64,000 nucleotides of DNA from Flavobacteriales bacterium (lineage in GTDB: Bacteria > Bacteroidota > Bacteroidia > Flavobacteriales_F > PHOS-HE28), in contig JAHDVX010000008.1 of assembly GCA_023382455.1 (NCBI GenBank), positions 62,001 through 126,000 of the forward strand. The letters are read 5' to 3'. Shown here in pieces: positions 2,552 through 32,874 of the stretch. Position 1 is the stretch's first letter. Every line of letters begins with the position of its first letter. A model generated the notes under the pieces. It saw nothing but the letters and a program-made list of their open reading frames with translations. It was not told the origin of the DNA and searched no databases. The translations under genes and the position numbers were made by a program.

Positions 2552-2621
2552 GTTGCCAGTTGCCAGTTGATAGTTGATAGTTGATAGGGGGAGTACCCCC
2601 TGACAACGGACAACGGACAAC
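2552..2621. repeat. Head-to-head heptamer array with GC hairpin
   Basis: On the plus strand five 7-base units run without gaps from 2552 to 2586: GTTGCCA twice, then GTTGATA three times. They are followed by GGGGG-AGTA-CCCCC (2587-2600), a small hairpin. Units of the same period then continue on the opposite strand (2601-2621: GTTGTCC twice and GTTGTCA once, read on minus). The array fills most of the gap between the convergent ends of the lamin-tail gene and nuoF. It may act as a bidirectional terminator, although neither side has a clear U tract. Confidence 0.75.
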
Positions 2622-2626
2622 CAACA

Positions 2627-3985: not shown

Positions 3986-3994
3986 GGCTGGAGG

Positions 3995-6299: not shown

Positions 6300-6302
6300 G
6301 GC

Positions 6303-6923: not shown

Positions 6924-6927
6924 GGCC

Positions 6928-7290
6928 TCACTCCCATTTCAGTGCGCCTTTCTTGATCACATAGATGAAACCTGCCAGCACGAAGCCCAGGAAGACGAGC
7001 ATCTCCACGAAGCCGAACCAGCCCAGTGCCTTGAAGTTGGCGGCCCACGGGTACATGAAGATGACCTCCACGTCGAAGAGCACGAAGAGGATGGCGACCA
7101 GGAAGTACTTCACCGAGAAGGGCGTGCGGGCGTTGCCGTGCTTCTCGATGCCGCACTCGAAGTTCTCGTCCTTGCGCTTGCCGTTTCGCCGGGGCCCCAG
7201 CCATGCGGCCGCGCCCAGCGCCACGAGTACGAAGCCCGCGGCGATGACCACTTGGATGATCAGCGGGAGGAAGTCCTGCGGGGTGCTCAT
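6928..7290 (-). CDS. nuoA: NADH-quinone oxidoreductase subunit A
   Basis: This small membrane subunit of complex I has 120 residues and three transmembrane helices (about 10-32, 65-87 and 92-113). The loop motif ENFECGIE with its cysteine and the acidic LFDVEVIFMYPW are typical of NuoA/ND3. A longer frame exists, but its extra 25 residues are not conserved-looking and begin within 20 bases of the promoter -7 box. The start MSTPQDFLP at 7290 is therefore preferred. It is the first gene of the nuo run. Confidence 0.95.
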   Translation of the reverse strand: MSTPQDFLPLIIQVVIAAGFVLVALGAAAWLGPRRNGKRKDENFECGIEKHGNARTPFSVKYFLVAILFVLFDVEVIFMYPWAANFKALGWFGFVEMLVFLGFVLAGFIYVIKKGALKWE

Positions 7291-7339
7291 GCTTGCTTGA
7301 AAAATTCCGTGCGAACCTACGGGAGTTCCGTGGTTGTTG

Positions 7340-7367
7340 CAAAGGTAACGGTCAGCTACCGCCACAA
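7340..7367 (-). promoter_or_regulatory. Promoter for nuoABCDEF
   Basis: Read on minus, TACCTTTG (7347-7340) is an exact match to the Bacteroidota -7 consensus TAnnTTTG, and a TTG (7367-7365) lies 17 bases upstream. The implied leader to nuoA is about 45 bases. Confidence 0.7.
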
Positions 7368-7429
7368 TGGTCCCATGAAGGGTGTACCGCCCCCGTCGGT
7401 CCGCCTCCTGTGCAGGACTTCACCGGCAG

Positions 7430-9226
7430 TCAGGGAGCCCTTCTCTCCCACACCTCCACCCGCAGGTCATCCACCCGCCAAGGTCCGCCATGCTCGTTCC
7501 AGAGGTACACCTTCAGATTGTCCTGTGGCGAGCGGACCTCGGGCGTCAGGTAGTCCATGGCCACGGGGAGCCAGGTGTGGTGCACGCCGGGCGGCACGGC
7601 CCAATTCGCGGTGCGGTACTGATAGGTCTCCCCCTTGTGGTGGAAGGTGGCCACCAGCACGGGCGGAGGCTGCTCCGGCACACTGTCTCCCACCCAAAGC
7701 CGGGCCGATATGCGGAGCCAGGCGTGGTCCTTGCCGGTGAGGGTGGAGAAGGGCACGTCCGGGCCGGGGCTCCAGGGTGCATCGGGGGTAAAGGCGAAAG
7801 TGCTGTCGGGCTGTTCGTCGAATGCGAAGTGGTACGCCTCGCGCAGGGCATAGTGGAGCGTGTCGGTGAACCGTTCCTCCGCGCTGGTGTTGCGTTCCAC
7901 CATCAGCAGGCTGTCCGCCCCCGGCGGTTTGGCCAGGCGCCCGAAGATGGCCCGGTAGTAGGCCCCGGTCACGCGGTCGCGCGGCAGGATTCCGTGGCGC
8001 CATTGCCAGGTCTGGAACAGGTTCAGCAGCACCAATGCGGCAACCGCCACCATGGCCGGCCCGCGCAAGCACTTCCGCTGCCACAGGGCCTGCATGCAAG
8101 TGCCGAGGGGCAGCGCCAGCACCGTGTAGACCGGCACCATGGACCGCGAACTGAAGGAGCCGCCGGCATACCACCAGGTGGTCCATGCCGATGCCACCCA
8201 CAGGTCGGCCAGCAGGAAGAGCACCACGGCCCAAAAGGCTTCGCGCCGCCGTTTCCACAGCAACGGCAGGCCTGCCAAGGCCAAGGCCATCAGCGGGGTG
8301 TAGAGCAGCCAGCCCTTGCGGAAGCTGAAAAGGAAATCGATGATGTGCGGCGGCAGGAAGTCGAAGCCTTCACCGGGGTTCACGTAGGAGTAGAAGATCC
8401 ATTGGCCGGTGACGGCATGCCAGTAGATCAGTTGCGGGGAGGCCGCCACCACAAAAGCCGCGGCAGCCGCCGCCACCTGCCCGGGGTGCGCCCTCAGCAG
8501 GGCCCATTTGCCCCGCCAGCCCCGCCCCCCGCCGGGAAGCCAGAACAGGGGCAGCAGCAGGCACACGCCCTCCGAAGGCCGCACCAGTGTGATCAACCCG
8601 GCCGTGGCGCCCAGCAGCAGCGCCGTGCGCATGCGGGGCACGGCATGCCAGCGGATGGTGGCCCACAGCAGCAGGGCGTAGAGCAGGAAGAGCGGCGTGT
8701 GGGTGAGCAGGGTCCCGTCCCAGGCGGCCAGCTGTAGGAAGTTGGTGCCGAACACGGTGAGCAGGATCACCACGGCCGACCACGCGTCGCTGAAGAAGTG
8801 CAGGAGCACCCGGCGGAACACGAGCAGGCCGAGCAGGGCATAGAGCAGGCAGCCGAATGCCAGGATGTACTGGTAGGGCGGCGAAAGCCCGTCCGCCGGG
8901 AAGCCCAGCAGTGGTGCGGCGGTATGCGCCACCAGGAAGAACGGGGCATACAGCACGGCCATGCCCGCGCTGTACTTGATCACGCGCTTGCCATCGGGGC
9001 CGTCCACCAGCTGGTACAGCGTGGCCGAGGGCTCGTACTGGGCCATCAGCGAGTCCAGCCACGCATGTTCCTCCAACGCGATGTCGTGGTGGATAAAAGT
9101 GGCCGGTAGGTAGAGGTAGTAGCCGAACACATCCCAGCCCAGCACCTGGCGGGGCGGTGCGGAGGTGCGCAACAGCAGCAGGGCGACGCATCCGGCCAGT
9201 ACGGCGAGGAGCGACCGGCGTTGCAT
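7430..9226 (-). CDS. Polytopic membrane protein, GT-C glycosyltransferase-like
   Basis: I do not recognise the exact family. The 598 residues start with a hydrophobic helix, followed by an extracytoplasmic-looking loop with GWDVFGYYLYLPATF. An acidic residue followed by YY in the first loop is the layout of GT-C enzymes (PMT/ArnT-like) that use lipid-linked sugars. About ten further transmembrane segments run to residue 420. The last 160 residues are a soluble beta-rich domain. It stands alone with its own promoter box, between nuoA and a small conserved membrane protein. A role in glycosylating surface or secreted proteins is plausible but is inference only. Confidence 0.6.
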   Translation of the reverse strand: MQRRSLLAVLAGCVALLLLRTSAPPRQVLGWDVFGYYLYLPATFIHHDIALEEHAWLDSLMAQYEPSATLYQLVDGPDGKRVIKYSAGMAVLYAPFFLVAHTAAPLLGFPADGLSPPYQYILAFGCLLYALLGLLVFRRVLLHFFSDAWSAVVILLTVFGTNFLQLAAWDGTLLTHTPLFLLYALLLWATIRWHAVPRMRTALLLGATAGLITLVRPSEGVCLLLPLFWLPGGGRGWRGKWALLRAHPGQVAAAAAAFVVAASPQLIYWHAVTGQWIFYSYVNPGEGFDFLPPHIIDFLFSFRKGWLLYTPLMALALAGLPLLWKRRREAFWAVVLFLLADLWVASAWTTWWYAGGSFSSRSMVPVYTVLALPLGTCMQALWQRKCLRGPAMVAVAALVLLNLFQTWQWRHGILPRDRVTGAYYRAIFGRLAKPPGADSLLMVERNTSAEERFTDTLHYALREAYHFAFDEQPDSTFAFTPDAPWSPGPDVPFSTLTGKDHAWLRISARLWVGDSVPEQPPPVLVATFHHKGETYQYRTANWAVPPGVHHTWLPVAMDYLTPEVRSPQDNLKVYLWNEHGGPWRVDDLRVEVWERRAP

Positions 9227-17342: not shown

Positions 17343-20000
17343 ATGACCCGTTGGTTCCTGCGCAGCCTGATGGCCGTCCTGCTCCTGGTATGGGGCCATG
17401 TGGCATGGGCCACCCACAACGAGGCGGGCGAGATCCTGGTTTGCCATGTGGGCGGCCCGGGCAGCCTTACCTACGAGGTCACCATCATCACCTACACCAA
17501 TCCGAACTCCCCGGCGGACCGCCCGGAATTCATCATGGATTGGGGAGACGGCACGCCCTTGGACACCATTTCGCGCGATGCGGCGGACGTGGTGGTGGTG
17601 GGCGGCATCAGCACCCAGCGCAACCTGTACATCAACCAGCACGTGTACCCCGGGCCGGGCGTGTACCTGCTGCAGTACATCGACCCCAACCGCGTGGCCG
17701 ACGTGGTGAACATCCCCGGTTCGGTGAACGTGCCCATGTGCGTGCAGACCCAGCTGGTGATCAGCGTGGCGGGCAACAACTGCAGCCCCACCTTCCTGAA
17801 CCCGCCCATCCAGAACGCGTGCCTGGGCCAGCCGTGGTCGCATAACCCCGGGGCTTGGGACATCGATGGCGACAGCCTCTCCTTCGAACCGATGGTGTGC
17901 CTGGGCGGCGACCTCACCAACGACGGCCTGGGCGATCCCATCCCGGGCTACCTCTACCCCGACCAAGTGGCACCGGGTGCCAACAACCAGTATACCATCG
18001 ACCCGGTCTCGGGCACCATCACTTGGGAATCGCCGCAGCAGACGGGCATCTACAACATTGCCTTCATCGTGCGGGAATGGCGCCTGATCAACGGGCAGTG
18101 GGTGAGCATCGGCTGGGTGGAACGCGACATGCAGGTGATCGTGGGCCCGTGCAACAACCAGCCCCCGGAACTTGCCGCCGTGCAGGACACGTGCGTGGAG
18201 GCCGGCACCACGCTGGTGGTGCAGGTGCAGGCCACCGACCCCAACGCGGGCCAGACCATCACCCTGGACGCCTTCGGCGGTCCGTTCGAGGTGCCGTCCT
18301 CCCCGGCCGTGTTCAACTCCTCCCCGGCCCAGAACGTGGTGAACGGCACCTTCGCCTGGAACACCGGGTGCAGCCACGTGCGGCAACAGCCCTACCTGGT
18401 GGTGTTCAACGCCCGCGACAACTACAATCCGGTGCAGTTGCAGGACAACGAGGCCCTGTTCATCACCGTGGTGGCGCCGGCCCCGCTGAACCCGGCGGCC
18501 ACGGCGGACGCCGGTGTGATGCAACTCTCCTGGGACCCCAGCATCTGCAGCAACGCCACCGGCTACCGCATCTACCGCAGGCAAGGCCCCTCCGGCTGGA
18601 CCCACGACCACTGCGAGACCGGCGTGCCGGCCTACACCGGCTACGCCTTCATCGGCAGCACACAGGGCGTTAACAGCACCCAGTACACCGATGCCGGCCT
18701 GGCCTTCGGCATCACCTACTGCTACCGCGTGGTGGCCACCTTCGCGGACGGGGCCGAGAGCTATGCCAGCGTGGAGTTCTGCAACATGCTGGAGCGTGAT
18801 GTGCCCATCATGACCCATGTGAGCGTGGGTGCCACGGACGTGGTGACCGGCGTGGATACCGTGCGTTGGAGCAATGCCTTCGACCTGGACACCGTCCAGT
18901 ACCCCGGCCCCTATTTGTTCAAGCTCTACCGCGGCACCGGCCTGACCACCGCCAACGACCTGGTGTACACCAGCCCGGCATCGGCATTCCTCGCCAGCCC
19001 GGACACGCAGTACGTGGACTCCGGCCTGGACACGCGCACCACCGGCCATGCCTATCGGGTGGAATTGTACGCCGACAACGGCGGCACGCTCGTCGGTTCG
19101 GGCAATACCGCATCCTCCGTCTTCCTTTCGGCCGCGCCCGATGATGAGCAGGTAACACTGCTCTTCAACCACCAGACCCCGTGGATCAACACGCAGTACG
19201 AGGTTTACCGGTGGAACGGCACCGCCTGGGACCTGGCGGGCACCAGCACGGAGGAGAGCTTCACCGACACGGGCCTGGTGAATGGCACGGAGTACTGCTA
19301 CTACGCGAAAGCCTTCGGGGCCTATGACGACCCGGGCATCACCGCCCCGCTGATCAACTTCAGCCAGGAGGTCTGCGCCACGCCCGTGGACCTCACACCG
19401 CCGTGCCCGCCCACGCTGGCCATCGTGAATGATTGCGAGCTGCCGCTGAATACGCTCACCTGGAACAACCCGAATAACAGCTGTTCGGGCGACACGTGGC
19501 GGTACCACATCTACTTCACCGACAGTTTGGGCGGCCCGCCCGTGCTCATCCACACCATCACCGGTGCAGGTGATACGGTGTTCACGCATGTGGACGGCAC
19601 CTCGGTGGCGGGCTGCTACCAAGTGACGGCCATTGATTCCGTGGGCAACGAAAGCGCGTTCAGCAACCAGGTGTGCGGCGACAATTGCCCGGACTACACG
19701 CTACCCAACGTCTTTACGCCCAACGGCGACCGGGTGAACGACCGGTTCATCCCCTTCCCCTATCGCGGGGTGAAGGTGATCGACCTGCAAGTGTTCAACC
19801 GCTGGGGCCAGCTGGTGTTCACCACCACCGATCCGGACATCCTGTGGAACGGAACGATGAACAACACGGGCGAGCCCGTGCCGGACGGCGTGTACTTCTA
19901 CCTCTGCCACGTATTCTTCAAGCGCCTGCACGGCTCCGTGCCCGAAGTGCTGAAAGGCACGGTGCAAGTGATCGGCAGCAACCACGCCCAGCGCAACTGA
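17343..20000 (+). CDS. T9SS type B secreted protein (gliding-motility C-terminal domain)
   Basis: This 885-residue secreted protein begins with a clear signal peptide (MTRWFLRSLMAVLLLVWGHVAWA, cleaved before THNEA). The N-terminal 270 residues form a cysteine-containing beta-rich region found in Bacteroidota surface proteins (EFIMDWGDGTPLDT, GNNCSPTFLNPP, DIDGDSLSF). Several fibronectin-III/Ig-like modules with CYRVVA and CYYAKAF follow. The last 90 residues are the CHU_C/type B sorting domain: LPNVFTPNGDRVNDRFIP, VFNRWGQLVF and PVPDGVYFY. It is probably exported by the T9SS and displayed or shed. The TGA stop overlaps the ribE start (TGATG). Confidence 0.9.
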   Translation: MTRWFLRSLMAVLLLVWGHVAWATHNEAGEILVCHVGGPGSLTYEVTIITYTNPNSPADRPEFIMDWGDGTPLDTISRDAADVVVVGGISTQRNLYINQHVYPGPGVYLLQYIDPNRVADVVNIPGSVNVPMCVQTQLVISVAGNNCSPTFLNPPIQNACLGQPWSHNPGAWDIDGDSLSFEPMVCLGGDLTNDGLGDPIPGYLYPDQVAPGANNQYTIDPVSGTITWESPQQTGIYNIAFIVREWRLINGQWVSIGWVERDMQVIVGPCNNQPPELAAVQDTCVEAGTTLVVQVQATDPNAGQTITLDAFGGPFEVPSSPAVFNSSPAQNVVNGTFAWNTGCSHVRQQPYLVVFNARDNYNPVQLQDNEALFITVVAPAPLNPAATADAGVMQLSWDPSICSNATGYRIYRRQGPSGWTHDHCETGVPAYTGYAFIGSTQGVNSTQYTDAGLAFGITYCYRVVATFADGAESYASVEFCNMLERDVPIMTHVSVGATDVVTGVDTVRWSNAFDLDTVQYPGPYLFKLYRGTGLTTANDLVYTSPASAFLASPDTQYVDSGLDTRTTGHAYRVELYADNGGTLVGSGNTASSVFLSAAPDDEQVTLLFNHQTPWINTQYEVYRWNGTAWDLAGTSTEESFTDTGLVNGTEYCYYAKAFGAYDDPGITAPLINFSQEVCATPVDLTPPCPPTLAIVNDCELPLNTLTWNNPNNSCSGDTWRYHIYFTDSLGGPPVLIHTITGAGDTVFTHVDGTSVAGCYQVTAIDSVGNESAFSNQVCGDNCPDYTLPNVFTPNGDRVNDRFIPFPYRGVKVIDLQVFNRWGQLVFTTTDPDILWNGTMNNTGEPVPDGVYFYLCHVFFKRLHGSVPEVLKGTVQVIGSNHAQRN

Positions 20001-22552: not shown

Positions 22553-23506
22553 TCAGAACAGTTTGGAGGCGATGGCCTTCACCGCCTCGGACCGGCCCAT
22601 GGTGTAGAAATGCAGGCTGGGCACCTTCCGGACCTGCAGCTCCTTGGCCTGGTGGGTGGTCCATTCAACCCCCAACTGCTTCACGGCTTCATCGGTGCGG
22701 CACTTTAGCAATTCGCGGGCGTAGGCGTCGGGCAGGTCCACGTGGAAGGTCTTGGGGATGAAGGCCACGTGCCGCAGATTGGTCAGCGGCTTCAGCCCCG
22801 GGATGATGGGCACGTTGATGCCCTCCAGGCGGCAGCGCTCCACGAAGTCGAAGTAGCGCTGGTTGTCGAAGAACATCTGGGTCACCAGATACTCCGCACC
22901 GGCCTCCACCTTGCGCTTCAGGTAGGCGATGTCGGTGCTTGGGTTGAGGGCCTCGGCGTGTTTCTCCGGATAGCAGGCGGCACCGATGCACAGGTCGGTG
23001 GGCGAGGCTTCCTGCTCCTCCTCGTAGAGGTACTTGCCCCGGTTCAGGTTGCCGATCTGGCGCACCAGCTCCTCGGCATGGGCGTGTCCGTCGCGCTCGG
23101 GGATGAAGTGGGGCTCGCTCTTCACCGGGTCGCCGCGCAAGGCCAGCACGTTGTCGATGCCCAGGAAGTTGATCTCGATCAGCGCATCCTCGGTATCCTC
23201 CCGGCTGAAGCCGCCGCAGATCAGGTGCGGCACGGTGTCCACATCGTACTTGGCCTTGATCATGGCGCAGATGCCCACCGTACCGGGGCGCTTGCGCAGG
23301 CGGATCTTCTGGAGCAGGCCCTGTCCGCGGTCCTTGTAGATCACCTCCTCGCGGTGGTAGGTCACGTTGATGAAGCTCGGCTTGAACTCCATCAAGGGGT
23401 CGATGCCCGCGTAGATCGAACGGATGTCCTTGCCCTTGAGCGGCGGCAGGATCTCGAAGGAGAAGAGCGTTTTATCGCTGGAATGCAGATGGTCGATGAC
23501 CTTCAT
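22553..23506 (-). CDS. metF: Methylenetetrahydrofolate reductase
   Basis: This FAD enzyme makes 5-methyl-THF for methionine synthesis. The TIM-barrel protein of 317 residues shows FSFEILPPLKGK at the N-terminus, NVTYHREE, the FAD-contacting LRGDP near residue 120, and GAAVYP-like IGAACYPEKH followed by KVEAGAEYLVTQMFFDN. It stands 29 bases upstream of the M1 peptidase, in the same direction, but both have promoter-like boxes. Confidence 0.96.
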   Translation of the reverse strand: MKVIDHLHSSDKTLFSFEILPPLKGKDIRSIYAGIDPLMEFKPSFINVTYHREEVIYKDRGQGLLQKIRLRKRPGTVGICAMIKAKYDVDTVPHLICGGFSREDTEDALIEINFLGIDNVLALRGDPVKSEPHFIPERDGHAHAEELVRQIGNLNRGKYLYEEEQEASPTDLCIGAACYPEKHAEALNPSTDIAYLKRKVEAGAEYLVTQMFFDNQRYFDFVERCRLEGINVPIIPGLKPLTNLRHVAFIPKTFHVDLPDAYARELLKCRTDEAVKQLGVEWTTHQAKELQVRKVPSLHFYTMGRSEAVKAIASKLF

Positions 23507-23555: not shown

Positions 23556-25721
23556 TCAACGCAATAGCGTCACATGGCCGGTGAACTCCCGGCCGTCCGC
23601 CAGTCTCAGAATGAAGAAGTAGGTGCCTTCCGGCAGTTCCTTGCCCGGGCTCCAGGTGTTCTTGTAGTTGCCGCTCGCAAAGACCGCCTGGCCCCAACGG
23701 TTGTACACCTTCAACGAGGTGTTCGGGAAGTACTGTCCGCCCTCGAAGACCAAGGCATCGTTCTCTCCGTCGCCGTTGGGGCTGAACACGTTGGGGACGA
23801 CAATCTCCGTGGGGATCACCACCTGAACGTAGGTATAGGTGGAACTGCAACCGTCAGCACTGGTGACCGTGAGCATGACCGGGTAATGGCCCGGCACGGT
23901 GAACACCGGGGCGATGGAGCCGCCGCTGCCCGAGCCCAGGCTGCCCAAGTCCCAGGACCACGAGGTGATCACTCCGCCGTTGCCGTTGGACTGGTCAGTG
24001 TATTCCACGGTGGTACCCGCATACACCTCACCCGCCGGTTGCGCGGTGAAAAAGGCTATCGGGTCCGGGGCTCCCAACACCGTCACCGGATCCGCCGAGC
24101 CGGGGCAGCCCGCGGCATTCGTCACCGTTACCGTGTAGCTGCCCGTATCCACGCTCACCGAAGGCGTGGCTTCCCCATTGCTCCAGAAGTAATTGGCATA
24201 CGGCTCCGTGATGGATAGCACGGCCGGCTCGTTGCCGCAGGCAACCAGGCCCCCGGTGATCACCGGTGCAGGAGCAGGTATACCATGGACCACCAAGGTG
24301 TCCGAGACCAGGCCGCAACCGTTGGCACCCGCTTCCACGAAGTAGGTACCGGGCCCGGCCTGGATCTCCTGCCCTGTGGCACCGTTGGACCAATGATACT
24401 CCGCGTAACCGCCCGAGGCCGTGAGCGGTGTGGTTTGTCCATCGCAAACCAGGGTGTCGGCGGTGATCAACGGCTGTACGGTGGGCCGGACGGCCACTTG
24501 CAAAACGACGGAGACCTCGGTGGTCAACGGAGGCGTGCCGTTGTCCGTGGCCGAGTAGGTGATCACATGCAGCCCGGTGTCCGCATCGGTGGGGGTGAAC
24601 TGCAATTGCAGGCTGGATGGATTGCCCGCACCGCTGTTCTGCGCCGCTACCGGGGCCACCAAGGGCGGAGTGATCGCGAAAGAGGCCGTGGTCGTTTGCC
24701 CGGCTTCCGGAGCCAGGAAGTCGACATCCAAGTGCACTGGTTCATCCACACAGATCTTCACCGTGTCGCACAGCGAACTCCCGCTGGCCACCGGTGCGAT
24801 GTTTGCTGAGCTCGTGGCCGTGGTGAACACGAAATTCTTGTAGCTCAACCACCCCACCTCGTCCGGTTGTCCGAAGGGACCGTCATAAGCCGTGCCCGGC
24901 ATGTTGAACCGGCCGAACTGGGCGAAATCCACCGCATTGCCGCGGTTGGCGCCCACGGTGGCCGGCGTGCCACAGAACCCCAGCTCCAGCCCGTCTCCCG
25001 GGGAGCAGGAATAGGACCCCAGTGCATTGCTGCACGTATAGCCGCTGGCCGGGTCCCAAACGCACGACGCCGAACCGGTGGTCCATTCCATCTGCTTGTA
25101 GCAGAAGGAGACCGTCTGGCCGATACCCACATCGGTGTTCGTGCCGTCGCTGATGATCAGCTGGAAGGTGTTGCGCTTGTCGGTCTGCTCGGAGAAGTAG
25201 CCCACATCGGTCCAATTCACGTACAGCGCATTGCCGGTGAGCTTGTACCTCACCGTTCCTCCCCCGTTCCGGGTGTCCACATCACCCCAAAAGGCGGCCA
25301 CCATGCGGAAGGACGGCACGGGAAAGCTGAACGCGGAATAGGTCGGGTGCGGCAGGAGGAATGAGACGTTGCCGTTGTTGTTCACAAAGCAGGTGCTGTA
25401 CAAGTCGCCGTACAGGTTGAACTGGAAGGGCAAGGTGATCTCCGGCGAACTGAAATCATCGTTGGGCAACATCGCCAGGGAGTAGGTGCTGTCGGGTTCG
25501 ATCCAGCAATCGCAGCCTCCCCCTTCGCGCAAGGCGCCACCGGTTGCGGCATGCTGCACCATCGGTGGCGGAAGGGTCGGATGATTCACATGGAATTCGG
25601 CAGGCAGGGCGCCGGCAAGCTTGAGTTGCTGGTACTGCTCCACGGAGAGTTCCACACCTTGCCCCATAACGGCGCAAGTGAACAGGCAGGCCACGGCCGC
25701 CGAAGTATGAAAATGCATCAT
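23556..25721 (-). CDS. NIDO-domain T9SS type B protein, copy 1
   Basis: This 721-residue exported protein has a signal peptide (MMHFHTSAAVACLFTCAVMG) followed by GVELSVEQYQQLKLAGALP. A nidogen-like (NIDO) domain follows (about residues 70-300), seen as CDCWIEPDSTY, NNNGNVSFLLP, FWGDVDTRNGG and YVNWTDVGYF. A cadherin-like region (about 310-405), two short Ig-like repeats containing YHWSNGATG and YFWSNGEATPS, a PKD domain (EYTDQSNGNGG) and the type B sorting domain (VVPNVFSPNGDGENDALVF) complete it. It is a close paralogue of the next gene. NIDO domains are adhesive extracellular modules, so a role in adhesion is likely but unproven. Confidence 0.88.
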   Translation of the reverse strand: MMHFHTSAAVACLFTCAVMGQGVELSVEQYQQLKLAGALPAEFHVNHPTLPPPMVQHAATGGALREGGGCDCWIEPDSTYSLAMLPNDDFSSPEITLPFQFNLYGDLYSTCFVNNNGNVSFLLPHPTYSAFSFPVPSFRMVAAFWGDVDTRNGGGTVRYKLTGNALYVNWTDVGYFSEQTDKRNTFQLIISDGTNTDVGIGQTVSFCYKQMEWTTGSASCVWDPASGYTCSNALGSYSCSPGDGLELGFCGTPATVGANRGNAVDFAQFGRFNMPGTAYDGPFGQPDEVGWLSYKNFVFTTATSSANIAPVASGSSLCDTVKICVDEPVHLDVDFLAPEAGQTTTASFAITPPLVAPVAAQNSGAGNPSSLQLQFTPTDADTGLHVITYSATDNGTPPLTTEVSVVLQVAVRPTVQPLITADTLVCDGQTTPLTASGGYAEYHWSNGATGQEIQAGPGTYFVEAGANGCGLVSDTLVVHGIPAPAPVITGGLVACGNEPAVLSITEPYANYFWSNGEATPSVSVDTGSYTVTVTNAAGCPGSADPVTVLGAPDPIAFFTAQPAGEVYAGTTVEYTDQSNGNGGVITSWSWDLGSLGSGSGGSIAPVFTVPGHYPVMLTVTSADGCSSTYTYVQVVIPTEIVVPNVFSPNGDGENDALVFEGGQYFPNTSLKVYNRWGQAVFASGNYKNTWSPGKELPEGTYFFILRLADGREFTGHVTLLR

Positions 25722-25773
25722 GATGGACCTGGTTGGAGAGACCAGTACAACGGTCGCTTGGAGAGCGGGAGGG

Positions 25774-25780
25774 CAAGATA
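25774..25780 (-). promoter_or_regulatory. -7-like box for NIDO copy 1
   Basis: On minus, TATCTTG with a leader of about 50 bases to the gene. The same element precedes NIDO copy 2. Confidence 0.4.
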
Positions 25781-25810
25781 CTGAGGCGTCATAAAAGAAA
25801 CGGACGGATC

Positions 25811-25866
25811 AAAGGTTCGAGAGTGCGAGAGGAACGGCCCTCGCACACTCGCACTCTCGAACCTTT
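25811..25866. repeat. Inverted octamer repeat forming a 19-base-pair hairpin
   Basis: The 19 bases 25811-25829 are exactly complementary to 25848-25866, with 18 bases between. Both arms are built from 8-base units: GTTCGAGA then GTGCGAGA on plus; GTTCGAGA, GTGCGAGT and GTGCGAGG on minus. A second pairing with CTCGCAC at 25840-25846 is possible. It lies between two minus-strand NIDO genes. The rest of this 325-base gap holds the copy 1 leader and promoter, a terminator, and unremarkable sequence (25867-25994). Confidence 0.8.
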
Positions 25867-25994
25867 GCATGACATCGTTCTTCCACTGGATGGAAAAGGA
25901 GAACGGATCTTCCTCACCGGCTCAGTAAAACCATACGGAACGGTTCCATGTTCCGCACAGGGCAATGGCAGGCACACTTGGTTCCGGCCCAAGA

Positions 25995-26025
25995 CCAAGA
26001 AGCCCCGGAGACCGGGGCTTCTTGG
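25995..26025 (-). terminator. Terminator-like hairpin after NIDO copy 2
   Basis: CCAAGAAGCCCCGG (25995-26008) and its exact complement (26012-26025) enclose a three-base loop, a 14-base-pair stem. It begins 21 bases past the stop of the gene ending at 26047. There is no U run, so it may act as an mRNA 3' stabiliser or a Bacteroidota-type terminator. Confidence 0.75.
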
Positions 26026-26046
26026 GGCAACAATGAATGATCGGGC

Positions 26047-28140
26047 TTAACGCACCAGCGTCACACTGCCGGTGTACTCCTTGCCGGTAACCAGTTTCAG
26101 CACATAGAAGTAGGTGCCATCCGGCACTTCCTTCCCGGGCCGCCAGGTGTTCTTGTAGTTGCTGCTCGAGAACACCTGCTGTCCCCATCGGTTCAGCACT
26201 TGCAGTGAGGTGTTCGGGTAGTATTGCACGCCCTCGAAGGTCAGCAGGTCGTTCGTCCCGTCGTTGTTCGGGCTGAACACATTGGGTACCACGATCTCCG
26301 TGGGGATGACCACCTGCTCGTACGTGTACGTGTCGGTGCATCCGTCGGCGGTGGTCACCGTCAAGGTGATGGTGTAGTTGCCCGGGTTCTCGAACAATTG
26401 GCTCATGGTGGTCCCATTGCCCACCACCACGGAATCGACCATCCAGGTCCATCCCACGATGGGGCTGCCATTGCCATTGGACTGGTCGGTGTATTCCACC
26501 GTGGTCCCGGGGAAGACCTCCGAGCCCGGGTTGGGCACGAACATGGCATCGGGTGAGTTGGCGGAAAGCACGTTCACCGAAGCCGAACTGCCGGGGCACC
26601 CGAACGTATTGGTCACCGACACGCTGTAGGTGCCCGTTCCCACGCTCACCGTGGGGCTGGTGCTTCCGTTGCTCCAGGCATAGGTGGCATAGGGTTCCGT
26701 GGTGGAGAGCACGGCAGGCTCCCCGCCGCAGTTGAAGAGCACCCCATCGATCACCGGCGTGGGTGCGGGCGCCTCGGTCACGGTGATGGAATTGGATACC
26801 ATGATGCACGCGCCGGTGCTGGCCTCCACGTAATAGGTGCCCGGCCCCACCAGCACGGTCTGCCCGTTGAAGCCGTTGGACCATTCATAGTTCTCGAACC
26901 CGCCGGTAGCGGTGATCAAGGCGCCTTCCCCGGCACAGGCAATGCTGTCCCCGGTGATCACGGGGGGTGGCGCGGCCACATAGAACACGCGGATCACCAC
27001 GGACACCGTGGCGGTGAGCGGCGGTACGCCATCATCAGCGGCCGTGTACGTGATCACGTGCAAGCCGGTATCCTGCACCACGGGAATGAATTGAAGATGG
27101 AGGTTCGCCGTGTTGCCCGGCGTGTTGGTCTCGGTGATGGTGGCGTTCAGGGGCGGCGTGATGGTATAGCTCGCGGTGGTGGTCTGGCCCGGCTCCGGGG
27201 CCAGGAAATTCACGTCCAGGTCCACCAGTTCATTCACGCAGATATCGATCGTGTCGCAAAGCGAGGTACTGCTGGCGATGGGCGGTATGTTCTGGGTGCT
27301 CACGGCCGTGGTGAACACGAAGTTCTTGTTGTCCAGCCAGCTGATGCCGTCGCTTGCACCGAAGGGCCCATCGTAGTCGGTACCCGGGTGGTCAAAGCGG
27401 CCGAACTGGATGTAGTCGATGCCGTTGCCCCGGTTGGCGCCCACGGTGGCCGGTGTGCCCCCGAAGCCGTTCACCCCTTGTGAGGCCGAACCGGTGGTCC
27501 ATTGCATGTCCTTGTAGCAGAACGAAACCGTGCTGCCGATGCCCACATCCGTGTTGGTGCCGTCGCTGATGATCAGCTGGAAGGTGTTGAGCTTGTCTGT
27601 CTGTACGTTGAAATAACCGACATCGGTCCAGTTCACATACAGCGCGTTCTGCGTCAGCTTGTACATCACCGTGCCGCCGTTGTTGCGCGTGTCCACATCC
27701 GCCCAGAACGGGGCCACCATTTTGAAACTGGCATTGGGGAACCCTTGGGAGGAGTAGGTGGAGAAGGGCTGCAGGAACGACACGTTCCCGTTGTTGTTCA
27801 CGTAGCACGTGTTGTACAGGTCGCCGTAGAGGTTGAACTGGAACGGCAAGGTGATCATCGAGGAGCTGCCGTCATCATTCGGGGCCAAGGCCAGGGTGTA
27901 GGTGTTGTCCGGCTCGATCCAGCAGTTGCAGTTGCCTCCGGTTCCGCCTCCGCCCTTCTCCTGGTTGACGGGCTGCACGGCCGGCGGGGGCAGCGTTGAG
28001 AAGTTCACATGGAACTCAGGGGGCAGGGTGCCGGCAAGTTTCATCTGCTGGTACTCCTCCACGGTAAGTGCCACTCCTTGGGCGGAAGCCGTGGCGCCGA
28101 GGGAAAGCGCCAGGAGCAGCAGTGAAAGGTGCTTCATCAT
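26047..28140 (-). CDS. NIDO-domain T9SS type B protein, copy 2
   Basis: This 697-residue exported protein has a signal peptide MMKHLSLLLLALSLGATASA and then QGVALTVEEYQQMKLAGTLP. Its layout is the same as copy 1: NIDO domain with NCNCWIEPDNTY, NNNGNVSFLQP, FWADVDTRNNGG and YVNWTDVGYFN (about 65-290), cadherin-like region, two short repeats with YEWSNGFNGQ and YAWSNGSTSP, PKD-like EYTDQSNGNGS, and type B sorting domain VVPNVFSPNNDGTNDLLTF. Copies 1 and 2 share long near-identical stretches, pointing to a fairly recent tandem duplication. The start is fixed by the signal peptide. The in-frame upstream ATG overlaps the promoter. Confidence 0.88.
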   Translation of the reverse strand: MMKHLSLLLLALSLGATASAQGVALTVEEYQQMKLAGTLPPEFHVNFSTLPPPAVQPVNQEKGGGGTGGNCNCWIEPDNTYTLALAPNDDGSSSMITLPFQFNLYGDLYNTCYVNNNGNVSFLQPFSTYSSQGFPNASFKMVAPFWADVDTRNNGGTVMYKLTQNALYVNWTDVGYFNVQTDKLNTFQLIISDGTNTDVGIGSTVSFCYKDMQWTTGSASQGVNGFGGTPATVGANRGNGIDYIQFGRFDHPGTDYDGPFGASDGISWLDNKNFVFTTAVSTQNIPPIASSTSLCDTIDICVNELVDLDVNFLAPEPGQTTTASYTITPPLNATITETNTPGNTANLHLQFIPVVQDTGLHVITYTAADDGVPPLTATVSVVIRVFYVAAPPPVITGDSIACAGEGALITATGGFENYEWSNGFNGQTVLVGPGTYYVEASTGACIMVSNSITVTEAPAPTPVIDGVLFNCGGEPAVLSTTEPYATYAWSNGSTSPTVSVGTGTYSVSVTNTFGCPGSSASVNVLSANSPDAMFVPNPGSEVFPGTTVEYTDQSNGNGSPIVGWTWMVDSVVVGNGTTMSQLFENPGNYTITLTVTTADGCTDTYTYEQVVIPTEIVVPNVFSPNNDGTNDLLTFEGVQYYPNTSLQVLNRWGQQVFSSSNYKNTWRPGKEVPDGTYFYVLKLVTGKEYTGSVTLVR

Positions 28141-28177
28141 CGTCCGAACGGGTTGGGGGTCAAGGGTGAAGATCGGC

Positions 28178-28184
28178 CAAGATA
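28178..28184 (-). promoter_or_regulatory. -7-like box for NIDO copy 2
   Basis: On minus, TATCTTG followed by a leader of about 37 bases. It suggests that copy 2 can be transcribed independently of the upstream sigma-factor unit. Confidence 0.4.
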
Positions 28185-28232
28185 ATTCCGGGGCCGGTCC
28201 GGGCCAAAATTTCGAGGAGGGGTATTGCATGG

Positions 28233-31190
28233 TCAATGGTTCAGTGTTACGGTCCCGAAACGTTCGGCGAGGTCCGCTGAGGCCACCGGGCGGTAGATGA
28301 TGCGCCAGACGTACACGCCCGTGGAGGCGGGCATTCCGCCGTTGACCAAGCCGTCCCAGCCTTCGTCAGGGTCGGTGCTTTCAAAGACGATGCCGCCCCA
28401 GCGGTCGAAGATGTACAGGTGGTAATCCGCCGCGACCATGTCCAGCATCACGGGCCTGAACACGTCGTTCACCCCATTGCCGTCGGGGGTGAACGCATTG
28501 GGCAGCCACAGGTTGGGCACCAGCACGGCCAAGGAGGTGTCGCAGAAGCTGTCCCGGCAACCGTAGCGGTCCGCCACATCCAGGCACACGGTGAACGTGT
28601 CGGCGATCGCGTCGGGGAATGTGTAGGCCACCTGCCTTCGGTCGGGCTGGCCAAGATCGGGCATGGTCCAGAGGAATTGGACGGCATGCTTGTCCGTGGC
28701 GGTGAAGACCACGCGGTTGTTCCCGGCGGTGATGGGATTGGGCGTGTACACGAAGGAAGCCACGGGAGGCGGGTCCACCAGCACGGCCCCCGGGGCGATC
28801 AGTTGGTCCGTGCAGCCTTCGGGCGTGGTCACGCGCAGTTTCAGGTGGTACCAGCCGGAGTCCGTGTAGGTGTGTGCAATGCTGCCGCAGGCATCCACCG
28901 GGTCGCTGCCGTCACCGAAGTCCCACACGCAGCTTCCGCCCACGTAGATCGGGTCCGTGGTGTTGGTGAAGGTCACGTCCAGCGGTGCGCAGCCACTGTC
29001 CACGTCGGCCGTGAAGGTGATCACGGGCAGCGGGTCGATGTGCACGGCGATGGCGGCGGTGTCGGAGAGGTGTGCACAGGTGCCCGGCCCGATGGCCACG
29101 TACCGGTAGGTGCCGGAAAGTTCCAGCGCGGGGTCCAAAAGGCCGTCCGGCAAGGTGGTGCCGTCGGGGGCAAGCCAGTGCCCGCCCTGGTCCGGGTTTC
29201 CGCCCAGCAAGGGGAACAGCGGGGTGTATCCTCCGTTGGCACAGATCACCAGGGCGCTGTCCACGCCTGCTTGCGGGATGGCATCCAAATTGATCGTGAG
29301 CACGGCGGTCTGGTCCGGGCATGGAAGCACCGCAGGCACGGTGTAGGTGTACACGCCGATGGTCCCGGTGGCCGGGTCGAACAGGTCCGGCACGGGGTTC
29401 CCGCCCACGTCCGTCCACGTGCCCGTGGGATCCGGGGTGCCCAGCAGGCGGCCGCGCATGCTGAAGGGGGCCTCATCGCGGCACAGGGTGATCGAGTTGT
29501 CATCCCCGGCATCCACGGCCTGGGGCACGGCGATGTTCAGGAAGGCCGTGTCGTTGGGGCAGGGCGCCACGCCCGGCAACAAGTAGCTGTACGTACCCGA
29601 TGCGGCCGAGGCCGGGTCCAAGGTGCCGTTGAACACCGTCCCGGCCGGGTCGGTCCAAGTACCACCGGACTGGGGGGTGCCGGGGATCAGCGGAAACAGG
29701 GGTGTGGCAAGGTCCCAGGAGCAGAACGCCAAGGTGGTGTCCCCGCCGGCGTTCACCGTGGTCTGGACGGTCATGTACGCAGTGCCTGTCGCGGAGCATT
29801 GGCCTCCCGTGGAGACCGTGTACGCATACGCACCGACCGGATCGGTGAGCGGATCGAAGAATCCGCCATGGGCATTGCCCGCCGGGTCGTTCCAAGTGCC
29901 GCCCGGTGGCGGGGCCCCGCCCAGCACGGTCAGCATGTCCACCGGGCCGTTGTCACTGCACACCGCCAGGGTGTCCGAGCTCAGTTGCGGCGAGGGCAGC
30001 ACGTGGATCACGATATGCAGTGTGCCGGTCTGCACGGGTGTACCGTTGTCGGTTCCCTCAAAGTACACGTCGTGGAAGCCTACCTCGGCCAGGGAGGCCG
30101 TGAAGCCCGAGGTGATCGTGGCCGTATTGCCCGAGGTGGAATCCACGATGGTGTAGTTGCCCAAGGTGTTGCACCAGGAGGTGGCCGAGGTTAATTGCGT
30201 AGGCTCCGGCGAGAGGAAGTCCACCGTAAGCAGGGAGGGCACCCCCGAGCACACCGTGAGCGTGTCACAGACCGATTGGCCGGAAACCACCGGGGTGAGG
30301 TTGCCCGTGGTGATGTCCGTGGCGAAGGTGAAGCTCTTGTGCGAGAGCCAGCCGATACCGCCCGGCGCACCGAAGGGTCCGTTGTAGTCCGTTCCCGGAT
30401 GGTCGAAGCGGCCGAACTGGATGTAGTTCACCCCGTCGCCTTTGTTGGCCCCCACGGTGGCCGGGGTGCCGCCGAACCCATTGATCCCATTGGAGGCACT
30501 GCCCGTTGTCCACTCCATTTCACCATAGCAGAAGGACACGTTGGCGTTCCCGTTGATCACCGGGTCGCTTCCGTTGGAGATGATCACCTGGAAGGAGTTC
30601 AGCTTGTCCGTCTGCTGGTTGTAGTAGCCCACGTTGGTCCAGTTCACATAGAGCGCGGTGGGGGTCACCTTGTACTGCACTTTGTTCAGGTTGGAGCCCG
30701 GCACGCGCAGGTCCACGTCCGCCCAGAAGGGGGCCACCAGCGAGGCCAGTGTATTGGGGAAGCCCGAGGAATTGTAGCCGGTCACGAATGTGCCGAAGGA
30801 GAGGTTGCCGTTGATGTTGATGTAGACCTGGTTGTAGTTCTGGCCATAGAGGTAGAAGCTGAAGGGCAGGTTAACCGGGCCGTATGAGCCGTCGTCGCCA
30901 TTGCCCCAGCCGGAGGCATTCCACTCCGTGCTGTTGTTGATGGTGGTGTAGGAGGCGTCGGGCGTGATCCAGCAATCGCAGGTGATCACGCTGTCCCGCT
31001 CGGTGCCCGCGCCGTAATCCGGGTCTTCGGTGGGGTGTGGCGGCACCTCCGGCGCGGGCGTGGTGAACTGGGCCTTCCAGGCATCGTACTCCTCCGCGCT
31101 GTCTACCCAGGAAGGCGGGGTCTGCGCCGAAACGGCACTTGTAAGGGCCGACACGGCCAACAGGAAGATGGCCCGGGATACGCTTTTCAT
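28233..31190 (-). CDS. Large NIDO-domain T9SS type B protein with four tandem repeats
   Basis: This 985-residue exported protein has a signal peptide MKSVSRAIFLLAVSALTSAVSA. The NIDO domain (about 65-295) has CDCWITPDASY, NINGNLSFGTF and YVNWTNVGYYNQQTDK. After a cadherin-like region there are four tandem modules of about 78 residues (roughly 401-478, 479-555, 556-635 and 636-718), each with GGTWNDPAG- or GTWTDVGGN-like and GTYSYLLPG-like cores. PKD domains (CVWDFGDGSDP) and the type B sorting domain (LPNAFTPDGNGVNDVFRP, FDRWGGIVF) follow. It is a more distant and larger relative of the two downstream genes. It follows the anti-sigma-like gene by only 3 bases and is probably in its operon. 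Confidence 0.88.
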   Translation of the reverse strand: MKSVSRAIFLLAVSALTSAVSAQTPPSWVDSAEEYDAWKAQFTTPAPEVPPHPTEDPDYGAGTERDSVITCDCWITPDASYTTINNSTEWNASGWGNGDDGSYGPVNLPFSFYLYGQNYNQVYININGNLSFGTFVTGYNSSGFPNTLASLVAPFWADVDLRVPGSNLNKVQYKVTPTALYVNWTNVGYYNQQTDKLNSFQVIISNGSDPVINGNANVSFCYGEMEWTTGSASNGINGFGGTPATVGANKGDGVNYIQFGRFDHPGTDYNGPFGAPGGIGWLSHKSFTFATDITTGNLTPVVSGQSVCDTLTVCSGVPSLLTVDFLSPEPTQLTSATSWCNTLGNYTIVDSTSGNTATITSGFTASLAEVGFHDVYFEGTDNGTPVQTGTLHIVIHVLPSPQLSSDTLAVCSDNGPVDMLTVLGGAPPPGGTWNDPAGNAHGGFFDPLTDPVGAYAYTVSTGGQCSATGTAYMTVQTTVNAGGDTTLAFCSWDLATPLFPLIPGTPQSGGTWTDPAGTVFNGTLDPASAASGTYSYLLPGVAPCPNDTAFLNIAVPQAVDAGDDNSITLCRDEAPFSMRGRLLGTPDPTGTWTDVGGNPVPDLFDPATGTIGVYTYTVPAVLPCPDQTAVLTINLDAIPQAGVDSALVICANGGYTPLFPLLGGNPDQGGHWLAPDGTTLPDGLLDPALELSGTYRYVAIGPGTCAHLSDTAAIAVHIDPLPVITFTADVDSGCAPLDVTFTNTTDPIYVGGSCVWDFGDGSDPVDACGSIAHTYTDSGWYHLKLRVTTPEGCTDQLIAPGAVLVDPPPVASFVYTPNPITAGNNRVVFTATDKHAVQFLWTMPDLGQPDRRQVAYTFPDAIADTFTVCLDVADRYGCRDSFCDTSLAVLVPNLWLPNAFTPDGNGVNDVFRPVMLDMVAADYHLYIFDRWGGIVFESTDPDEGWDGLVNGGMPASTGVYVWRIIYRPVASADLAERFGTVTLNH

Positions 31191-31193
31191 GGC

Positions 31194-32267
31194 TTAGCGG
31201 TACAGGCGCACCACCTCGGTCTTCACCCGGGGGCGGCCGTCCGGTCCGGAGATTTGTACCACGCAGCGATAGTATCCCTCCTCGGCGATGTTGCCGTTCG
31301 GGAGGCTTCCATCCCAATGGATGGCCAGGTTGTTGGTGTGGAACACGAGCTCTCCGGTCTTCGCCGAGAAGATACGCACCTCCGCACGCTCATTCCCCTC
31401 AGCCACGATCTTCAGGCGGTCGTTCACCCCGTCGCCTTGCGGGCTGAAGACGTTCGGGATGAAGATGGGGCTCTCCTCGGCGTGTGCAAAGGGGTCCGCA
31501 GCAGGGGCTTGTTCCTGGGTGTTTGCCGTGCCGTTCGGAGCCTCGGGTCCTGGATTGGCGGGTTGCGCCGTGCCGGGGTCTTTGCTTGCGGCGACTTCCA
31601 TCGCCGGTTCCTTGCCGACCGTGGCGGGTATGTCCGCCTTGGTCTCAGATGCCGGGGCCTCAGGACGGATAACAGTGGTGCTGTTGCCGGGTGCTGCCGG
31701 CCGTGGGGTGGTCACGGCTTGCTGCACGCCCGCCTCTTCCGCCTCAGGAACGTCGCCGGATGGCGATGCCTCTTGAGGGGCGTATGGCCGTGCGGCCTTC
31801 GGTGCTGCTGCTGGCCGTGCTGGTTCCTCGAAGGTCCCGGCCGCGGTGGCGGAAGGCGTGGGCTCTTCCACGAGCGCCTCCGCCGGTGTGGTTTCCGGTG
31901 AAGCGGTGATGGCAACCACGGTTTTCGCGGGAGCCGGGGCCGAGGATGGCGGGGTTTCCCGGTTGAACACCACCAGGGCAACGGCGATGCCCGCCACGGC
32001 AGCGACCCCGGCGGCGATCCAACCGGTGGAAACCGTACCGCCCGCCACGCCGGCATGGCCCATCCGGCTGCCGATGTTGGTCCAGGCCGAGGGATCCACC
32101 TGCACCTCATGGCCGCTGAATTTCCGCTGCATGGTTTCCCGCAGCGCATGCTCACCGGCACCGGCCAACTGGCCGCTGATCTGCTCCCAGGCGCCCGCCG
32201 GCACGTCCATCTCGTGATGGGCGAGGCGCTCGCGCAGCAGGTCCGTCAACTTGTCCCCTGTGTTCAT
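31194..32267 (-). CDS. Membrane anti-sigma-like protein fused to a CHU_C/T9SS-type domain
   Basis: The 357 residues have no cleavable signal peptide. Residues 1-75 are a predicted cytosolic region with two related helices, MDVPAGAWEQISGQL (about 20-34) and VQVDPSAWTNIGSRM (about 55-69), the layout of small membrane anti-sigma factors in Bacteroidota. One transmembrane helix follows (about 82-101). A Pro/Ala/Glu-rich linker (about 105-265) comes next, and then a C-terminal domain identical in type to T9SS type B sorting domains (PNVFSPQGDGVNDRLKI, VRIFSAKTGELVF). The start overlaps the sigma gene stop (ATGA). It probably binds the sigma factor inside and senses something outside. That is inference. 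Confidence 0.8.
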   Translation of the reverse strand: MNTGDKLTDLLRERLAHHEMDVPAGAWEQISGQLAGAGEHALRETMQRKFSGHEVQVDPSAWTNIGSRMGHAGVAGGTVSTGWIAAGVAAVAGIAVALVVFNRETPPSSAPAPAKTVVAITASPETTPAEALVEEPTPSATAAGTFEEPARPAAAPKAARPYAPQEASPSGDVPEAEEAGVQQAVTTPRPAAPGNSTTVIRPEAPASETKADIPATVGKEPAMEVAASKDPGTAQPANPGPEAPNGTANTQEQAPAADPFAHAEESPIFIPNVFSPQGDGVNDRLKIVAEGNERAEVRIFSAKTGELVFHTNNLAIHWDGSLPNGNIAEEGYYRCVVQISGPDGRPRVKTEVVRLYR

Positions 32268-32809
32268 CGTCCGTGCATCTCCACGGTTTCCTTTGGAAGC
32301 AGTTTCCGCAGGTAGGCCCGTGCCTTCATGAATTGCGATTTCGACGTGTTCTCCGAGATGCCCAGCATCTCGCCGATCTCCTTGTGCGGGTATCCTTCCA
32401 CGGCAAACAGGTTGAACACGGTGCGGTACCCGGAGGGCAATTGCTGGATCAGGGCCAGGATCTCATCGGCGCTCATGGCCCCGATCGAGCGTTCGTCCAC
32501 TGCGTGCAGGTGTTCGGCTTCCGTCAGGTCCTGGCTGTGCTCGAAAGGCTTGTTGCGCCGCAAATGGTCCAGCGCGGTGTTCACCATGGTGCGTGCGATC
32601 CACCCGCCCAGCGGTCCTTCGCCGCGATAGTGGTCCATTTTCTGGAACACCTTCACAAACCCGTCCTGCAGGATGTCCTGGGCCTGTTCACGGTTCGGGG
32701 CATAGCGCATGCAAATGCTCATCATCTTGCGTGCATAGGCCTGATAGAGCGCCTTTTGGGCGATCCGGTCCCCGCTGAGACAACCGGCAACCATCTGCTC
32801 ATCCGTCAT
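32264..32809 (-). CDS. ECF-type RNA polymerase sigma factor
   Basis: This 181-residue sigma-70-family protein has region 2 with ARKMMSICMRYAPNREQAQDILQDGFVKVF (described here by its ends, residues about 26-55) and the DNA-melting segment GGWIARTMVNTALDHLRR. Region 4 has LPSGYRTVFNLFAVEGYPHKEIGEML and the recognition helix SENTSKSQFMKARAYLRK. There is no region 1 or 3. It is co-translated with the downstream anti-sigma-like gene. Targets probably include its own operon. Confidence 0.93.
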   Translation of the reverse strand: MTDEQMVAGCLSGDRIAQKALYQAYARKMMSICMRYAPNREQAQDILQDGFVKVFQKMDHYRGEGPLGGWIARTMVNTALDHLRRNKPFEHSQDLTEAEHLHAVDERSIGAMSADEILALIQQLPSGYRTVFNLFAVEGYPHKEIGEMLGISENTSKSQFMKARAYLRKLLPKETVEMHGR

Positions 32810-32874
32810 GGCCTTGCATCCGCTATGATGCGATCCAGGCGTGGAAAGTTGCCTGCATGCACCGGCGATACGTA

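Follow-up and report, generated by a model that had tools for sequence, protein, structure and literature searches.

The window (the whole stretch of DNA analysed, 64,000 nucleotides) carries, on its reverse strand, the genes for an ECF sigma factor (SIG), a predicted single-pass anti-sigma factor with a C-terminal type IX secretion system (T9SS) type B domain (ANTI), and three surface proteins (NIDO1, NIDO2 and NIDO3) (Table 1). In the Pfam scan, SIG matched Sigma70_r2 (63 bits) and Sigma70_r4_2 (58 bits), and its 21 genus orthologues were 70-86% identical to it. The SIG stop and the ANTI start overlap as ATGA (32267-32264). The original prediction had described this overlap, the T9SS type B end of the membrane protein, the 985-residue NIDO/T9SS protein 3 bases further on and two more paralogues on the same strand. 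All of these were recovered, each gene at its stated place. NIDO, PKD and CHU_C were above the Pfam cut-offs in each of the three surface proteins, which are the sole NIDO proteins of this 3.43 Mb genome. By synteny, the downstream border of the locus, kept across the genus, is a gene resembling that for methylenetetrahydrofolate reductase (MTHFR).

Table 1 Features of the locus, in window coordinates.
Feature	Position	Strand	Remarks
ECF-type autopromoter, GGCAAC-N15-CGCATCAT	32825..32853	-	15 bases before the SIG start codon
SIG, ECF sigma factor	32264..32809	-	181 aa; Pfam, 21 genus orthologues, tree
ANTI, predicted single-pass anti-sigma, C-terminal T9SS type B domain	31194..32267	-	357 aa; Pfam, 38-row alignment, AlphaFold model
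ANTI residues 1-70, predicted sigma-binding part	32058..32267	-	two motif copies, four helices
ANTI residues 83-101, transmembrane helix	31965..32021	-	hydropathy; model helix 88-101
ANTI residues 102-264, Pro/Ala-rich disordered tether	31476..31964	-	pLDDT about 50
ANTI residues 265-357, CHU_C beta-sandwich	31197..31475	-	pLDDT 91-98 from residue 271
NIDO1, surface protein NIDO-PKD-CHU_C	28233..31190	-	985 aa; 3 bases past ANTI
Sigma-A-like boxes before NIDO2, TTTG-N20-TATCTTGG	28177..28208	-	7/8 to TAnnTTTG; weak
NIDO2, surface protein NIDO-PKD-CHU_C	26047..28140	-	about 697 aa
Strong terminator-like hairpin past NIDO2	25987..26028	-	-30.9 kcal/mol, z -5.4; no long T run
Sigma-A-like -7 box before NIDO3, TATCTTGC	25773..25780	-	read from sequence; weak
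NIDO3, surface protein NIDO-PKD-CHU_C	23556..25721	-	721 aa
MTHFR-like gene	22553..23506	-	name from sequence reading; synteny

The only Pfam match of ANTI was CHU_C (45.3 bits, cut-off 27). Against TIGR04131 the protein scored 25.5 bits, under the cut-off of 35. The Pfam scan returned neither a FecR domain in ANTI nor any anti-sigma family in its N-terminal domain. That domain repeats a helical motif (LFRERFxGHExxVDPGxWxxIxxQL) in tandem; five relatives have three copies of the motif, and most relatives outside the genus have one. The charge ahead of the transmembrane helix is net negative, so the predicted N-in topology draws no support from the positive-inside rule. The tether had no secondary structure in the AlphaFold model, and among 38 genus members its length was held within 137-170 aa (CV 6%), while its sequence was not conserved. 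Seven residues of the CHU_C domain (F274, P276, D279, N282, W318, G331 and Y333) were invariant across the 38 orthologues. The model of this C-terminal domain (CTD) aligned with T9SS substrate CTDs in the translocon complexes 8glk, 8gl8 and 8gl6 (Z 8.2-8.9), and also with PorZ and PorU (VIA-align). Ig-like domains of streptococcal proteases reached equal scores, so the fold alone does not show engagement with the T9SS. Like T9SS type B cargo, ANTI ends in a CHU_C domain above the Pfam cut-off. Cargo also carries a cleavable N-terminal signal peptide; by hydropathy, ANTI begins with its helical repeats instead.

Across the genus, where ANTI reading frames were taken from the sigma stop onward, the order sigma, anti-sigma and large CHU_C protein recurred; a search for the same gene order in relatives was a check put forward in the original prediction. 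One genus member that is 99% complete (G028) was without a close sigma orthologue. All 35 complete genus counterparts of NIDO1 carried CHU_C. The NIDO domain, taken by the original prediction as the constant element, did not hold this role: the first cargo protein was of the NIDO type in 23 of 39 genus loci and of the P_proprotein type in the other 16.

In 37 of 40 genus loci, the ECF-type promoter seen before SIG preceded the sigma gene at the same spacing. Chance, a frame artefact and misassembly were ruled out as sources of the arrangement; the gene order recurs in independent assemblies, and this recurrence, together with the conserved promoter spacing, places it beyond chance. The exact motif occurred once in the genome, before SIG. 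Thirteen more matches had one mismatch, and the 12 with a resolved context all lay in coding sequence. None of the 40 genus gaps between ANTI and NIDO1 held a second ECF promoter. Comparison of upstream sequences thus went against an ECF promoter shared by the three NIDO genes, since the motif stands only before the sigma gene. The broader idea of one locus and one circuit was upheld, in the form of a conserved trio behind one ECF-type promoter.

NIDO2 and NIDO3 are preceded by sigma-A-like boxes. These are weak claims, because the exact Bacteroidota sigma-A consensus (TTTG-N18-21-TAnnTTTG) had no match within the window. A scan for consensus E. coli-type promoters and terminators performed no better than on shuffled sequences. 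NIDO3 lies behind the hairpin that stands between it and NIDO2, and is probably a transcription unit with its own promoter; NIDO2 may perhaps have its own promoter.

Outside the genus, a search with full-length ANTI gave mainly CHU_C ends, and pairs were therefore picked by the N-terminal motif or profile alone. An ECF sigma gene adjoined in all 40 loci read, and CHU_C was present on 33 of 37 anti-sigmas found by the N-terminal motif, in many cases with a PKD domain ahead of it. The promoter takes the form GCAAC-N16-NCATC class-wide, and the GCAAC-N16 motif lay upstream of 29 of 40 out-of-genus sigma genes (0.03 expected). The next same-strand gene after the pair coded for a CHU_C protein in 14 of 26 cases, against a background of only some 44 CHU_C genes in 3.4 Mb. 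Two genomes of another family (L154 and L175) had the same order of sigma, CHU_C-ended anti-sigma and NIDO/CHU_C protein, and in many other families no cargo gene followed the pair. The genome studied here has a second such operon (on C14). In the tree, SIG falls into one clade (100/99) with sigmas whose partner anti-sigmas end in a beta-barrel. Another anti-sigma of the same genome (C17) has a C-terminus that looks barrel-like by eye, in which Pfam found nothing. The genes, their order, the promoter, the domain architecture and its spread are thus supported by sequence. As far as such data reach, the architecture is new, widespread in families of the Bacteroidia and kin to known trans-envelope anti-sigmas.

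A T9SS, as cargo requires, is present in the genome, with SprA at 2562 bits and 12 matches of the PorP/SprF family, 11 of them above the cut-off. Every genome sampled whose anti-sigma ends in CHU_C had SprA, but so had 286 of 295 class genomes, and its co-occurrence therefore has no power as a test of T9SS dependence. The only member of the set lacking SprA (G115) has an anti-sigma that ends in a barrel and not in CHU_C, which is suggestive.

We propose that the locus is a self-regulated, Dma-like sigma/anti-sigma/cargo operon coupled to the T9SS, a reading to which we assign a probability of roughly 0.55. The cytosolic helical repeats of ANTI would hold SIG at the inner membrane, and the disordered tether of fixed length would span the periplasm and display the CHU_C domain, the fold through which the translocon recognises T9SS cargo. 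When the T9SS engages this tethered pseudo-cargo, or fails to, ANTI would be altered or removed and SIG freed. Free SIG would then transcribe its own operon from GGCAAC-N15-CGCATCAT, yielding more SIG, ANTI and NIDO1, and perhaps also NIDO2 through read-through, so that the synthesis of surface proteins would follow the capacity for export or the occupancy of the surface. Within this scheme we infer the binding of sigma by ANTI, the topology, the engagement with the T9SS and the sign of the signal. Likewise we infer, along the lines of the original prediction, that the circuit senses T9SS export or the NIDO adhesins; a gauging of the T9SS by the CHU_C domain is plausible. A tethered CTD could also jam the T9SS instead of reporting on it.

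In a less likely alternative, ANTI would be a Dma-like surface sensor. The T9SS would only bring its CTD as far as the outer membrane or through it, and what is sensed would be something outside the cell, such as a ligand, contact with a surface or the NIDO or P-domain protein itself, rather than T9SS capacity. The barrel-ended partners in the SIG clade, the constant tether length and the PKD domains added before CHU_C outside the genus are consistent with this, but the outer side of the genus ANTI proteins consists of the sorting domain alone, with no separate ligand-binding module. It is more doubtful still that the T9SS plays no part and that CHU_C, as an ordinary Ig-like domain in the periplasm, binds a ligand or chaperone there. 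The fold is common to many non-T9SS domains and the TIGR04131 score was under its cut-off, but the invariance of the seven residues, the retention of CHU_C class-wide and beside CHU_C cargo, and the barrel in its place in G115 argue against this. Quite improbably, SIG would chiefly drive remote genes such as those for T9SS components, with the adjoining cargo incidental. An ECF/anti-sigma pair and T9SS genes do share SM6 promoters in Flavobacterium psychrophilum (PMC9723704), but the genome analysed here has a single exact promoter, the nearest other matches are in coding sequence, and cargo adjoins the pair in several families. Least credible by far is functionless accretion of a CHU_C end onto the anti-sigma gene by recombination with its similarly ended neighbour, since the CTD is conserved while the tether drifts and the same architecture occurs in many families, even without adjoining cargo.

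The proposed operon can be set beside several known systems. Dma1 and Dma2 control adjacent ECF21 sigmas (PMC13088901, citing Pardue et al. 2024 PNAS). Dma proteins and ANTI share an N-terminal sigma-binding part (predicted in ANTI), one transmembrane helix, a long disordered tether, a C-terminal outer-envelope domain, an adjacent ECF sigma and occurrence in Bacteroidota. They differ in the C-terminus (a beta-barrel in Dma, a T9SS type B sorting domain in ANTI), in the adjoining output gene, here a T9SS surface protein, and in the N-terminal motif, which stands here in two or three copies. Compared by architecture, not by sequence, ANTI would work like a Dma, but it is not classed as one because a CHU_C beta-sandwich replaces the beta-barrel. 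In Porphyromonas gingivalis, the CTD protein PorA feeds PorXY-SigP (PMC7712824, PMC4800418), where the activator of the PorY sensor is undetermined (PMC7712824). There, too, an ECF sigma serving the T9SS has a protein with a T9SS CTD acting above it, but PorA is separate, secreted and signals via a two-component system, whereas here the CTD lies within the anti-sigma. FecI/FecR signalling likewise pairs an ECF sigma with a single-pass anti-sigma that reads outer-membrane events; ANTI, however, has no FecR domain, and no TonB-dependent receptor was recognised beside it. The F. psychrophilum pair THC0290_1774/1773 resembles SIG and ANTI in combining an ECF/anti-sigma pair, an ECF promoter and a link to the T9SS, but its SM6 regulon includes T9SS components, whereas the one clear promoter here is the operon's own; the portion consulted gives no domains for its anti-sigma (PMC9723704). 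No description of an anti-sigma bearing CHU_C was found in the literature searched.

In many families, then, a single chain combines a T9SS sorting domain with an inner-membrane anchor and a sigma-binding domain, the latter predicted. This chain sits in one operon with T9SS cargo, which bears on how Bacteroidota match the synthesis of large surface proteins to export, and the promoter motif is clear enough for regulon prediction. More tentatively, ANTI may represent a class of trans-envelope anti-sigmas whose tethered T9SS sorting domain serves them as a probe. The translocon would handle this inner-membrane-anchored pseudo-cargo, and occupancy or pull would set sigma release, so that the cell would measure free T9SS capacity and adjust one cargo operon; the outer ends, T9SS domain or beta-barrel, would have been swapped several times. 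The findings suggest a recurring design by which cells adjust how much surface protein they make to how their export machine is faring. The Dma concept, so far tied to Bacteroides vesicles, would thereby become a design general to Bacteroidota, in which one outer end can replace another.

The gene layout put forward in the original prediction was exact at every position. The ECF sigma gene SIG is followed by ANTI, a predicted anti-sigma with a C-terminal CHU_C domain (CTD; T9SS type B), and by the surface protein genes NIDO1, NIDO2 and NIDO3. NIDO1 starts 3 bases after ANTI, and NIDO2 and NIDO3 come next in the row. Each of the three combines NIDO, PKD and CHU_C by Pfam; they are the sole NIDO proteins of the genome, which has 44 CHU_C matches in total. 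A hairpin was found 3' of NIDO2 (-30.9 kcal/mol, z -5.4). The transcription unit is likely SIG-ANTI-NIDO1, with NIDO2 as a further candidate member and NIDO3 separate. A CHU_C protein of 886 residues is encoded on the plus strand (window 17343-20000); many relatives have it close to the locus too, at 57-60% identity.

Window coordinates of the sigma/anti-sigma pair and its promoter
Feature	Position	Strand	Remarks
ECF-type promoter motif	32825-32853		before SIG; zero mismatches
SIG	32264-32809	minus	ECF sigma by Pfam
ANTI	31194-32267	minus	ATGA overlap with SIG; CHU_C at end

Gene order in relatives had been proposed as a check, and the succession of SIG, ANTI and a large downstream ORF indeed recurred across the genus loci. 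The search covered 44 other genomes of the genus and gave full-length ANTI orthologues in 38; in G023 the gene was split across two contigs. Four of the five genomes without an orthologue are incomplete drafts; the sigmas of the fifth, G028 (99% complete), were all more distant, the best scoring 174 bits. Identity across the genus was 70-86% for SIG and 26-48% for ANTI over its length. The two genes overlap or almost touch at every genus locus, a large ORF follows ANTI at all 38 other loci (junctions range between a short overlap and a gap of 185 bases), and an MTHFR-like gene ends the locus wherever the contig extends far enough.

CHU_C was detected in 35 of 39 first downstream proteins (first cargos), and the four without it match contig-cut or split ones (L039, L045, L060, L040), as far as they can be matched. 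NIDO occurred in 23/39 and P_proprotein in 16/39. The constant partner is therefore a CHU_C surface protein and not NIDO, so that the proposed association with surface proteins stood, while its NIDO part proved variable. In the first cargo, modules are exchanged at one fixed position: its N-terminal module is NIDO or a P-domain, sometimes CUB (e.g. L051, L055, L066), with PKD and CHU_C unchanged. L039, L040, L045, L059, L061 and L065 also have a gene for another NIDO or CHU_C protein immediately upstream of SIG.

The motif GGCAAC-N15-(C/T)GCATCAT precedes SIG in 37 of 40 genus loci, with defining bases and spacing all fixed; the exceptions include L043, whose contig begins within SIG, and L065, which has a variant. 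In the own genome the SIG promoter is the sole exact match, and the placeable one-mismatch sites all fall within genes. At least one exact match was found in 42/44 genus genomes, mostly one to three each. These included the SIG promoter in every genome for which its place was listed and SIG detected; the backwards motif, as control, gave near zero matches. The suggestion of an ECF promoter common to the three NIDO genes did not hold: with up to 3 mismatches allowed, the window has no GGCAAC-N15 site before NIDO1, NIDO2 or NIDO3. The ANTI-NIDO1 gaps of the genus (n = 40) had no such site. A sigma-A-like TAnnTT(T/G)(G/C) box lying just upstream (19/37 loci vs 0.7 expected) could supply basal expression.

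Residues 1-70 of ANTI consist of two copies of one helical motif, which is present three times at L045, L049, L053, L056 and L063 and once in most other families; copy number may tune sigma binding. This N-terminal part has a net negative charge, which lends the predicted topology no support under the positive-inside rule. The transmembrane helix (residues 83-101) is followed by an unstructured Pro/Ala-rich stretch (pLDDT about 50) and a C-terminal CHU_C sandwich (pLDDT 91-98). The stretch has 137-170 residues in 38/38 genus members (CV 6%), with unconserved sequence, and at least 119 in other families, with a single exception of 52 (L170), where the transmembrane segment was probably misplaced. 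Keeping length rather than sequence, it would fit a spacer bridging the periplasm. The CTD aligns with substrate CTDs from T9SS translocon complexes (8glk_D, Z 8.9; 8gl8_D, 8.3; 8gl6_D, 8.2) and with PorZ and PorU. Streptococcal protease domains reached Z values up to 10.0, and the fold by itself is therefore no proof.

The Bacteroides thetaiotaomicron anti-sigmas Dma1 and Dma2 repress adjacent ECF21 sigmas, and ANTI has the same order of parts, but the outer end is a barrel in Dma and a T9SS sorting domain in ANTI (PMC13088901). ANTI lacks the defining barrel and was therefore not classed as Dma; by analogy, it may work like Dma with the sorting domain replacing the barrel. PorA of Porphyromonas gingivalis is a precedent for a T9SS CTD protein that feeds into an ECF sigma pathway (PMC7712824).

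Of 295 Bacteroidia genomes from 155 genera, 80 (in 50 genera) matched a profile built from the N-terminal motif only. An ECF sigma lay immediately upstream of the anti-sigma in all 40 out-of-genus loci fully read. Among 37 anti-sigmas scanned, 33 had CHU_C (E 0.001; L144 slightly below the Pfam cut-off) and 20 PKD; barrel ends were assigned by Pfam at L171, L173 (slightly below cut-off) and L174. GCAAC-N16-(NCA, GCG, ACG or GTA)TC-type sites with constant spacer preceded 29/40 sigmas (0.03 expected from mononucleotide shuffling). The next same-strand gene (n = 26) encoded a CHU_C protein in 14 cases, and two members had NIDO; in 14 loci the next gene was on the opposite strand. In family f15 (L149, L157, L167), another ECF sigma gene directly follows the sigma/anti-sigma (CHU_C) pair.

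The 51 sigmas with such partners formed one clade (100/99), separate from the 12 other ECF sigmas of the own genome; branches among the outside sigmas were long, and we rely on the clade alone. Sigmas whose partner was not CHU_C-ended by the first criterion were dispersed within it. Nearest to the genus sigma were L154 and L175 (fork support 80/69), where the next gene is also NIDO/CHU_C. G115, which is without the T9SS component SprA, has a barrel-ended anti-sigma (L171).

The own genome has a second such row on contig C14 (L262, G000:C14:1-10500, 2620-8077): sigma, anti-sigma (PKD, CHU_C) and a CHU_C surface protein that also has CUB, a P-domain and a weak match to the SprB repeat. Here GGCAACC...GCGTCTAA precedes an internal start codon of the sigma; because the motif falls within the longest frame, the start was probably called too far upstream. 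Sigmas of the SIG clade on C10 (L264) and C17 (L263) have partners that look barrel-ended and Dma-like, by a below-cut-off OMP_b-brl_2 match (17.6 bits) on C10 and by eye only on C17. At the remaining ECF sigma loci read in this genome, no CHU_C gene adjoins.

Gene order, promoter, anatomy and spread are supported at the sequence level, and we consider an autoregulated sigma/anti-sigma/cargo operon highly probable (about 0.9). Coupling of the circuit to the T9SS has slightly better than even odds. In the most likely working, SIG would be held back by ANTI, T9SS parts at the outer membrane would see the tethered CTD of ANTI, and its state would set the release of SIG, which would then drive transcription of its own operon, CHU_C cargo included.
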